Assembly (NCBI GenBank): GCA_013204105.1 | Contig: JABMOM010000020.1 | Location: forward strand, 186,001 to 250,000 | Source of the DNA: Flavobacteriales bacterium | GTDB taxonomy: Bacteria; Bacteroidota; Bacteroidia; Flavobacteriales_G; Salibacteraceae | Direction: 5' to 3' | DNA length: 64,000 nt | In this document: piece by piece, positions 19,584 to 24,465 of the stretch | Position numbering within the stretch: position 1 is the first letter of the stretch | Layout: every line of letters starts with the position of its first letter | Made by a program: the position numbers and the translations under genes | The notes under the pieces: model-generated | What the model was told of the DNA's origin: nothing | Databases searched by the model: none | What the model saw: the letters and a program-made list of their open reading frames with translations, nothing else

Positions 19584-19943
19584 TTACACGAGCGTCAATC
19601 GAAGCTTGCCAAAGAATTTATCTAGAAGCAATAACCCAGACAGAATAAAGAGGCCGATGGCGTAAAGCGGTGAATTAAAAGCCTTTAGAGTCGCGGAGTG
19701 CAACAAATTATTCAAAGCCTCATAAGGCGATGCCTGGTCAGCTGCCATCAATAAAGCTAAACACGCGAGCACTACTACTACTCCTATGCCAATTACCTCT
19801 GGGGTAGTAAATCGAGGCGTTTTCGCGACGACTTTGGATTCTGCCTCTATTTGGGTCATGACATTATCGACAAACCTTGCGCTAGGAGTTTCGGTTGGCA
19901 AAGCAGCCTTGATCATTTCATCGATATTTCTTTCCTTTTTCAT
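19584..19943 (-). CDS. Membrane protein paired with the ECF sigma factor (possible anti-sigma factor)
   Basis: 119 residues: a soluble N-terminal 65 residues, then two membrane helices ('IGIGVVVVLACLALLMA' and 'LYAIGLFILSGLLLL') and a short basic end. It starts 11 bases after the ECF sigma stop codon, the usual place for an anti-sigma factor. It lacks the HxxxCxxC motif of zinc-binding anti-sigma factors, so this role is an inference from position and topology. Its stop codon is 11 bases from the convergent propeller gene. Confidence 0.6.
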   Translation of the reverse strand: MKKERNIDEMIKAALPTETPSARFVDNVMTQIEAESKVVAKTPRFTTPEVIGIGVVVVLACLALLMAADQASPYEALNNLLHSATLKAFNSPLYAIGLFILSGLLLLDKFFGKLRLTLV

Positions 19944-20517: not shown

Positions 20518-20611
20518 CTTTTGACGCGACATCTTAACATCGGTTACATCGAAAGATAGAAAACTATTTATAATGTGGTTTGTAACCGATTGGACAAGGC
20601 TGCGTCAAAAG
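20518..20611. promoter_or_regulatory. Symmetric divergent ECF-type promoters
   Basis: Two perfect 10-bp inverted repeats share one centre (20564.5). The outer pair is CTTTTGACGC/GCGTCAAAAG (20518-20527/20602-20611) and the inner pair is ATCGGTTACA/TGTAACCGAT (20539-20548/20581-20590), with 11 bases between them on both sides. Read outwards, each strand has TGTAACC-N15-CGTC, the layout of an ECF -35 (GTAAC core) and -10 (CGTC) pair. The sigma gene lies to the left and the DUF6249 gene to the right. Confidence 0.75.
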
Positions 20612-20966: not shown

Positions 20967-20989
20967 AAATTCTTCGTTTAGTTAGGCTG

Positions 20990-21016
20990 AGGCCCTCCTT
21001 TGTGGGGGCCTTTTTT
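20990..21016 (+). terminator. Rho-independent terminator
   Basis: AGGCCCTC / GGGGGCCT stem followed by TTTTTT, 24 bases after the DUF6249 stop codon. Confidence 0.88.
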
Positions 21017-21058
21017 GTTCCCTTCTGGTCAAAAGCATCAGAAAACGGGATGTGTTCA

Positions 21059-22080: not shown

Positions 22081-23301
22081 ATGAACAATAACAATAGAAC
22101 TCGCCGACCCGGTGCACACAAGCCTCAGGGAAACGGCTCTTTTAACGCACGATCACGCAAACCTGCGCGTAGCAATGGCGGTGGATGGAAACCTTCCACC
22201 TTAGATCCCTCTTTACTTGTACGAAAGGCCACCGACGTGACCACTGAGCAATACCGCTCAATACGTACCATTGAAGAGCTGCCTATCGATGATAGGATCA
22301 TTTCATGCCTAACGAAGAAGGGGTTTACACACCCTACCGAAATTCAGGACAAGACAATCGAACACCTACTGAATCACCGTGATGTACTAGGCATTGCCCA
22401 AACGGGCACCGGAAAGACCGGAGCCTTCCTCATTCCGATCATTCAAGACTTACTTAAGGAACAGAAAAAGCCATTTGCGCTTGTATTGGTTCCCACGAGA
22501 GAACTCGCCACGCAAGTTGAAGAGGAATTTAGGAGCATGACCAAAGGGTTAAACCTTTTCAGCTCATGCTTCATCGGCGGTACGAACATCAATCGCGACA
22601 TGCAGAACTTGCGTCGTCCGAGCCATGTAATCATTGCAACCCCAGGACGATTACTCGACTTGGTAAGTCGCAAGATGCTTGACCTTCGTGTGATGAACAC
22701 GCTAGTACTTGACGAATTCGACCGCATGCTCGACATGGGATTTGAAAAGGATGTCATGCGCATCATTTCTGGAATGCACGCTAGACAGCACACTCTACTT
22801 TTCTCGGCAACATTGGACAATTCTCAACGACGCTTGATCGACGAGATCTTACATGAGCCTGTAACCGTTAAGGTTAGCACCGGAGACACTACCGGAGACC
22901 ATATTGATCAGGACATCATTCGCCTCAACCCGGGCGAGGATAAATTGAGCGTTTTGACTGATTTGATCAAGGATTCATCATATGAGAAAGTCTTGGTCTT
23001 TGAAGAAACCAAGCGACGTGTTTCAAAGCTGTGCAAGCAGCTCAACCAACACGGTATCGAATCTGAAGAGATCCATGGCAACAAGAGTCAAAATGCCCGC
23101 CAAACTGCATTGAATAAGTTCAAAGCAGGAAAGGTTAGGGTGCTGGTTGCAACGGATGTGGCTTCACGTGGCATTGATGTTTCGGATGTGACACACGTCA
23201 TTAATTACGAAGTGCCACAAACATTTGATAGTTACATTCACCGTATTGGCAGAACGGGTCGAGCCGGAAGAAAAGGAATGGCACTTACATTCGTATCTTA
23301 A
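22081..23301 (+). CDS. DEAD-box RNA helicase (RhlE/CsdA-like)
   Basis: A 406-residue ATP-dependent RNA helicase that remodels structured RNA. The N-terminal 40 residues are basic and disordered ('RTRRPGAHKPQGNGSFNARSRK'). The Q motif is at 'GFTHPTEIQ', motif I 'AQTGTGKTG', motif II is the variant 'VLDEFDRMLD' (DEFD instead of DEAD), motif III 'FSATL' and motif VI 'HRIGRTGRAGRKG'. The protein ends ten residues after motif VI, so it has no C-terminal RNA-binding tail. It is the first gene of an operon with a sigma factor 25 bases downstream. Confidence 0.9.
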   Translation: MNNNNRTRRPGAHKPQGNGSFNARSRKPARSNGGGWKPSTLDPSLLVRKATDVTTEQYRSIRTIEELPIDDRIISCLTKKGFTHPTEIQDKTIEHLLNHRDVLGIAQTGTGKTGAFLIPIIQDLLKEQKKPFALVLVPTRELATQVEEEFRSMTKGLNLFSSCFIGGTNINRDMQNLRRPSHVIIATPGRLLDLVSRKMLDLRVMNTLVLDEFDRMLDMGFEKDVMRIISGMHARQHTLLFSATLDNSQRRLIDEILHEPVTVKVSTGDTTGDHIDQDIIRLNPGEDKLSVLTDLIKDSSYEKVLVFEETKRRVSKLCKQLNQHGIESEEIHGNKSQNARQTALNKFKAGKVRVLVATDVASRGIDVSDVTHVINYEVPQTFDSYIHRIGRTGRAGRKGMALTFVS

Positions 23302-23326
23302 AACCTTTAAATAACAAACTCCCTAT

Positions 23327-24187
23327 ATGCGTCAGCTAAAAATTTCCACCTCGTTCACGGACCGTGAAAGCATGACCCTGGATAAGTACCTCAACGATGT
23401 CAGTCGTGAGGGTATGATTTCTCAGGAAGAAGAAGTGGAGTTAACGAAGCGTATACGCGAAGGAGACAAACGCGCGCTCGACCGAATGGTAAGAGCGAAT
23501 CTAAGGTTTGTCGTCTCTGTGGCAAAACAGTACCAAGGACAAGGAATGCCCTTGATCGACTTGATTTCTGAGGGGAACCTCGGATTGATCAAGGCCGCTG
23601 AGCGCTTTGATGAAAAGAGAGGATTTAAGTTCATTTCCTATGCTGTCTGGTGGATTCGACAATCCATTATGTCATCTATCTCTGAGCATTCTCGCACAGT
23701 ACGTATCCCATTAAACCAAGCGAACAGTATACGCAAGGTGGGTTATGCAAGTCGCATGCTCGAGCAAGAGTTGGAGCGTCTACCGACGGCAGAAGAATTG
23801 GCTTTTCAATTAGAAGCGTCTGAAGAAAGCGTACGTTTCACCCAGGAGACCAGTCAAAAGGGAATGTCCCTCGACGCTCCTCTCGGTGATGAGACCAACG
23901 ATGTAACATTGATGGACTTGATTTCTGGTAGCGACCAGTACTCAACCGATGTGAGGCTTGAACAAAATTCTTTGAAAGTAGAAGTCAGACGTCTTTTAGA
24001 CTCACTCGAACCCATTGAGCAAACGGTAATCAGTAACTATTTTGGTCTGAATTCCGATGAACGCAGCCTTACCGATCTCGCCGACGAACTAGAGTTGAGC
24101 AGGGAACGTATACGACAGATAAAGAATAAGGCGTTGAAACGTCTTTCAAAAAATATAAACTACGACATGCGTGCATACATTAACTAG
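23327..24187 (+). CDS. RpoD/SigA-type sigma-70 factor (possibly a second, non-housekeeping copy)
   Basis: 286 residues with regions 1.2, 2, 3 and 4. It starts 'MRQLKISTSFTDRESMTLDKYL' and has the core 'NLRFVVSVAKQYQGQGMPLIDLISEGNLGLIKAAERFD', 'FKFISYAVWWIRQSI' and the region 4 HTH 'LELSRERIRQIKNKALKRL'. The layout matches the short primary sigma factor of Bacteroidota. However, 'VRIPLNQANSIRKVGYASRMLEQEL' and region 4 differ from the usual 'VRLPLNKIGSINKI', so it may be a paralogue of group 2 type. It lies between two RNA-binding genes, an unusual place for rpoD. Whether it is the primary factor cannot be settled here. Confidence 0.85.
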   Translation: MRQLKISTSFTDRESMTLDKYLNDVSREGMISQEEEVELTKRIREGDKRALDRMVRANLRFVVSVAKQYQGQGMPLIDLISEGNLGLIKAAERFDEKRGFKFISYAVWWIRQSIMSSISEHSRTVRIPLNQANSIRKVGYASRMLEQELERLPTAEELAFQLEASEESVRFTQETSQKGMSLDAPLGDETNDVTLMDLISGSDQYSTDVRLEQNSLKVEVRRLLDSLEPIEQTVISNYFGLNSDERSLTDLADELELSRERIRQIKNKALKRLSKNINYDMRAYIN

Positions 24188-24219
24188 CGCAGGTCACTAA
24201 CGATCAATTTTTATTTAGC

Positions 24220-24465
24220 ATGAAACTATTTGTAGCAAGATTGGATTACTCCGTAGATAGCGAGGAACTCCGAACCGTTTTTGAAGAGTATGGCACCGTA
24301 ACGTCATGTTCAGTTGTAACCGATAAAGAGACAGGCCGCTCACGTGGCTTTGGCTTCGTAGAAATGTCTGATGACGACGCTAATCAAGCGATCCGTCAGT
24401 TGGACCAAAGCGAATTGCGCGGCCGCGAAATGGTCGTGAAAATCGCCGAAGACAAGCGACGTTAA
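24220..24465 (+). CDS. RRM-type RNA-binding protein
   Basis: An 81-residue single RNA recognition motif. RNP2 is 'KLFVARLDY' and RNP1 is 'RGFGFVEM', with conserved aromatic positions. Proteins of this type in cyanobacteria and Bacteroidota are often cold-induced RNA chaperones. It is the last gene of the DEAD-box/sigma operon, 32 bases after the sigma gene, and is followed by a strong terminator. Confidence 0.92.
   Translation: MKLFVARLDYSVDSEELRTVFEEYGTVTSCSVVTDKETGRSRGFGFVEMSDDDANQAIRQLDQSELRGREMVVKIAEDKRR

Follow-up and report, generated by a model that had tools for sequence, protein, structure and literature searches.

Back-to-back ECF-type promoters very probably let one sigma factor activate its own gene and a divergent DUF6249 membrane-protein gene in Bacteroidia

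Introduction

ECF sigma factors are recognized by a few hallmarks, namely a two-domain sigma factor, promoters with AAC and CGT cores, a co-transcribed anti-sigma factor and positive autoregulation, the last being predicted for about 55% of ECFs (PMC8103513). The locus described here, found in a window of 64,000 nucleotides from a Flavobacteriales genome (the window being the whole stretch of DNA analysed), fits these hallmarks, with an anti-sigma factor that is putative and an autoregulation that is predicted. Like systems of the E. coli RpoE-RseA type, it has a sigma factor composed of the sigma-2 and sigma-4 domains only, AAC and CGT promoter cores, and an operon that includes a membrane protein and whose own promoter carries the motif. 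Unlike those systems, it has the consensus TGTAACC-N15/16-CGTC instead of GGAACTT/GTCTAA, a second matching promoter that serves DUF6249 on the divergent side, no surplus of strict promoter matches in the remaining genome, and a sigma factor mRNA predicted to be nearly leaderless.

In the same class of bacteria, envelope- and oxidative-stress ECF systems have been described in Bacteroides (EcfO, SigW-1 and SigH-1) and in Phocaeicola, where a sigma/anti-sigma pair is known (PMC12596196, PMC9308784). These systems are likened to our module by description only, and the excerpts of the two papers mention neither a DUF6249 partner nor a TGTAACC promoter (PMC12596196, PMC9308784). As the excerpts present it, the Phocaeicola anti-sigma factor is much larger than the two-transmembrane (two-TM) protein of the module and includes an outer-membrane barrel. 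Autoregulation is a textbook ECF property. Literature searches on the motif, on DUF6249 together with sigma factors and on leaderless ECF sigma factors returned nothing on the module, and neither the near-constant linkage of DUF6249 to an ECF sigma gene nor a class-wide sigma/DUF6249 module was found in the papers searched; the main ECF reclassification may list the group or its motif.

Results

Architecture of the locus

The features of the locus are collected in Table 1. Between the two divergent genes, the repeat arms follow one another in the order CTTTTGACGC (20518-20527), 11 nt, ATCGGTTACA (20539-20548), 32 nt, TGTAACCGAT (20581-20590), 11 nt and GCGTCAAAAG (20602-20611). Both pairs of 10-bp arms are perfect and share a single centre, an arrangement for which we estimate a chance occurrence of about 1e-8 in roughly 100 nt; the repeat search merges the arms into one pair of 31 nt with 74% complementarity. 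Read outwards on either strand towards its gene, the sequence is TGTAACC-N15-CGTCAAA, and the -10 CGTC is separated from the ATG by 10 nt in the case of the sigma gene and by 27 nt in that of DUF6249. The original prediction, which described two nested perfect 10-bp inverted repeats on one centre with 11-base gaps and a TGTAACC-N15-CGTC layout on either strand between the ECF sigma and DUF6249 genes, thus agrees exactly with the sequence. The intergenic region holds no match to the housekeeping sigma-70 consensus, a result of little weight given that Bacteroidetes promoters differ.

Table 1. Features of the sigma/DUF6249 locus, in window coordinates.
Feature	Position	Strand	Basis
119-aa two-TM protein, putative anti-sigma factor	19584..19943	-	position conserved in relatives
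ECF sigma factor gene, 185 aa	19955..20512	-	Pfam PF04542 and PF08281 above cut-off
Nested inverted repeat, read as two back-to-back promoters	20518..20611	.	repeat search
Predicted sigma gene promoter: -35 TGTAACC 20548-20542, N15, -10 CGTC 20526-20523	20523..20548	-	sequence and conservation in relatives
Predicted DUF6249 gene promoter: -35 TGTAACC 20581-20587, N15, -10 CGTC 20603-20606	20581..20606	+	sequence and conservation in relatives
DUF6249 gene, 110 aa, three predicted membrane helices	20634..20966	+	PF19762, E 8e-15
Terminator-like hairpin and T run, 3' of DUF6249	20989..21018	+	sequence

The sigma protein carries its sigma-2 domain (PF04542) at residues 24-90 and its sigma-4 domain (PF08281) at residues 122-174, separated by a linker of about 31 residues. 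The ECF promoter feature, AAC in the -35 and CGT in the -10 element, is present in TGTAACC-N15-CGTC, and the same core recurs in most of the 138 loci compared below. Reading frames continue 11 nt past the sigma stop codon with the start of the 119-aa protein, in which two membrane helices are predicted and for which a profile search returned no family match, anti-sigma families included. Where the ORF downstream of the sigma gene is full-length, most divergent loci encode a protein of the same two-TM type in this position. Relatives of the 119-aa protein have mostly two TM segments according to a simple hydropathy scan, preceded by a PSxxFTxxVMxxI stretch; some carry an N-terminal domain ahead of this stretch, and a few of them a CxxC pair. 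The AlphaFold model of the 119-aa protein is helical but weak (pLDDT 78, pTM 0.32). We read the protein as a putative anti-sigma factor in reduced form. Proteins with an N-terminal CxxC pair (L076, L139, L141, L148) stand at one end of the range seen across relatives, and the reduced protein of 119 aa in the window at the other.

On the other side of the repeat, the DUF6249 protein scores 55.1 bits against PF19762, for which the cut-off is 33, and belongs to that family. Its AlphaFold model (pLDDT 89.2) consists of three long helices (2-34, 47-75 and 80-109), the alignment shows a conserved TRNKERMALIEKG after helix 1, and comparison of the model with the PDB gave no structural match at E <= 0.001. 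The hairpin 3' of the gene suggests a single-gene transcript.

Conservation of the motif across Bacteroidia

A PF19762 profile search covered 396 genomes of the class Bacteroidia; 92 loci were compared alongside the window, 93 in all. An ECF sigma gene is present within the compared stretch at 88 of these 93, divergent from DUF6249 at 71 and directly downstream in the same direction at 14. A second set comprised 80 further named loci from GTDB genomes (Flavobacteriaceae, Bacteroidales, Prolixibacteraceae, Algoriphagus, Aquimarina and others). We compared matches to a strict outward pattern, GTAAC-N15..18-[CT]GTC, with those in shuffled sequences. In the first set, 50 of the 71 divergent loci carry the pattern on the DUF6249 side and 49 on the sigma side; after shuffling, the averages were 0.15 and 0.17, respectively, and the maximum was 2.

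Loci that seem at first to lack the strict motif are in many cases paired variants, in which both sides depart from it together. With a relaxed pattern (G[TA]AAC, N14-19, NGTC or NATC), both sides matched at 127 of the 138 non-identical divergent loci, while shuffles averaged 0.14 and did not exceed 2; the motif is missing on one or both sides at the other 11. The proposed check, that the motif ends should be conserved beside homologous sigma genes while the spacers vary, accordingly came out in favor of the promoter reading. In remote DUF6249 loci (L114-L117, L119, L121-L125) the strict motif is not seen, and these may use a different promoter sequence.

Co-variation of the two sides

Spacer length is equal on both sides at 121 of the 127 loci (permuted mean 92, maximum 103), and the -10 elements share their first base at 94 of 127 (permuted mean 66, maximum 82); since the permutations retain lineage effects, the independent concerted changes are fewer than these locus counts imply. 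Individual cases include AGTC/AGTC pairs in a flavobacterial group (L205, L213, L222, L224, L232, L237), CATC/CATC in Algoriphagus (L187, L190) and GAAACC/GAAACC in L193. Co-variation of this kind is what would be expected of two separate promoters that one sigma factor recognizes.

The same evidence bears on whether both elements might be ECF promoters read mainly by one or more other ECF sigma factors of the cell and not by the adjacent one, which we consider very unlikely. Genomes of the genus do hold many other ECF sigma candidates, and at one odd locus of the genus (L153, G001:C24:72100-77400) only a remnant of about 14 codons is left of the sigma gene, with DUF6249 intact and both promoters intact and exact; promoters kept without a full sigma gene mean that the loss is recent or that another sigma factor reads them. 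Against this, the motif travels with the clade of the adjacent sigma factor and its two sides co-vary at the locus. In a tree with 11 ECF paralogues of the window's genus, the DUF6249-linked sigma factors split off with a support of 0.914, and the TGTAACC/CGTC motif is absent from all 24 paralogous ECF genes of the genus. ECF sigma factors are, moreover, typically autoregulated (PMC8103513).

Symmetry and geometry of the repeat

The perfect symmetry stressed by the original prediction is present in the window, but beyond TGTAACC and CGTC it is local to the genus and without special meaning. One arm is already mismatched in a close relative (G009, locus L002), so the 10-bp symmetry shrinks there, and in distant relatives it is gone outside the two boxes. 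The perfection of the 10-bp arms and the equal 11-nt gaps are a lineage-specific local accident on top of two promoters.

The alternative layout, in which DUF6249 comes first and the sigma gene immediately after it on the same strand, occurs at 14 loci (L070, L078, L080, L102, L104, L112, L123, L124, L125, L134, L136, L143, L144, L146). These have at most one copy of the motif, located upstream of DUF6249; none was found between DUF6249 and the sigma gene or within 100 nt of the latter.

That the nested palindrome is instead the operator of a dimeric or tetrameric DNA-binding regulator, with the ECF resemblance secondary, draws on the perfect dyad symmetry and equal gaps of the window but is scarcely credible, because the fixed half-site spacing of a palindromic operator is not found (the gap between the two -35 elements ranges from 13 to 762 nt across loci), the single copies of the same-direction loci are unpaired, the half-sites preserve both the spacing of ECF -35 and -10 elements (N15-17) and their order with respect to the gene, and the symmetry decays in relatives as described above.

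Leader lengths

On the sigma side, the -10 element lies 9-12 nt from the start codon in 51 of the 54 strict matches of the second set, and mostly 8-16 nt from it in the first set for genes that start with ATG; several larger distances in the first set reflect a non-ATG start or one misplaced in automatic calling. On the DUF6249 side the distance is 23-70 nt, with one match excepted. ECF-dependent transcription usually starts about 9-10 nt beyond the GTC of the -10 element, as for E. coli sigma E. With the sigma ATG about 10-11 nt past the -10 in most loci, the sigma mRNA is predicted to be leaderless or nearly so. Assuming the usual ECF start site, a fair reading for the window is a sigma leader of about 0-4 nt, in line with the "about 4 bases" first proposed, and the short distance is a property of the whole class. 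The predicted DUF6249 leader would be roughly 15-60 nt.

Size of the regulon

Searching the 3.1 Mb genome for TGTAACC-N15-CGTCAAA with up to one mismatch gave three matches, all exact, two of them at the locus; in G009 and G001 the same search found only the two locus sites. More generally, TGTAACC-N15-16-CGTCHHA matched 52 times in 32 genomes that hold the locus, 35 times at DUF6249 loci and 17 times elsewhere, and the latter are not in excess of the 15 matches obtained with a reversed control. A large regulon was rejected for lack of such an excess, and no conserved strict-consensus target of the sigma factor was detected away from its own locus. The core regulon looks private, comprising the sigma factor, the putative anti-sigma factor and DUF6249, and weaker sites may exist in addition.

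The third exact site (L161, G000:C29:83079-83107, minus strand) lies shortly upstream of a gene of the beta-lactamase family (PF00144) whose product is probably exported. The other 12 genomes of the genus contain no match to this gene, which makes it no more than a weak candidate for an additional target.

Discussion

Our best explanation, which we regard as very probable, is that the inverted repeat consists of two back-to-back ECF promoters (TGTAACC / CGTC) of one shared sigma factor, the adjacent one, which would activate itself and DUF6249. More specifically, the sigma factor would be freed, presumably from the two-TM protein encoded just downstream, and would bind the motif as part of RNA polymerase. 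The loaded polymerase would transcribe the sigma/anti-sigma operon, giving positive feedback, and the monocistronic gene of the DUF6249 membrane protein would be transcribed together with it. Transcription of the sigma mRNA would begin at its start codon or a few bases from it. The earlier claim that both genes are driven by the same sigma factor is supported by the two-sided motif at most divergent loci, by the co-variation of the sides and by the single-copy same-direction loci. What had been called an autoregulated two-way switch holds insofar as both sides are predicted to be activated together; it is not a toggle between them.

A wider proposal, which we put forward tentatively and with somewhat less than even confidence, is that of an ECF module that is class-wide and self-contained: its core regulon would comprise only itself and the three-TM DUF6249 protein, with a conserved near-leaderless sigma mRNA. 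In that case DUF6249 may be either the effector of the module or its sensor/feedback partner, and the task of the module would be to protect a single local process, not to direct a genome-wide stress response.

These results link, throughout Bacteroidia, a specific sigma factor with an uncharacterized membrane family and supply its promoter code, TGTAACC-N15/16-CGTC. Through natural paired variants (TGTC, AGTC, CATC, TGTAACA), sequence co-variation can be used to study how sigma factors recognize their promoters, and two predictions for the locus lend themselves to testing: that an autoregulated sigma mRNA is near-leaderless and that the regulon of the sigma factor is private. Elsewhere in the window, at 22081-24465 on the plus strand, ORF translations point to a DEAD-box helicase, a primary-type sigma factor and a small RRM-type RNA-binding protein encoded in a row.
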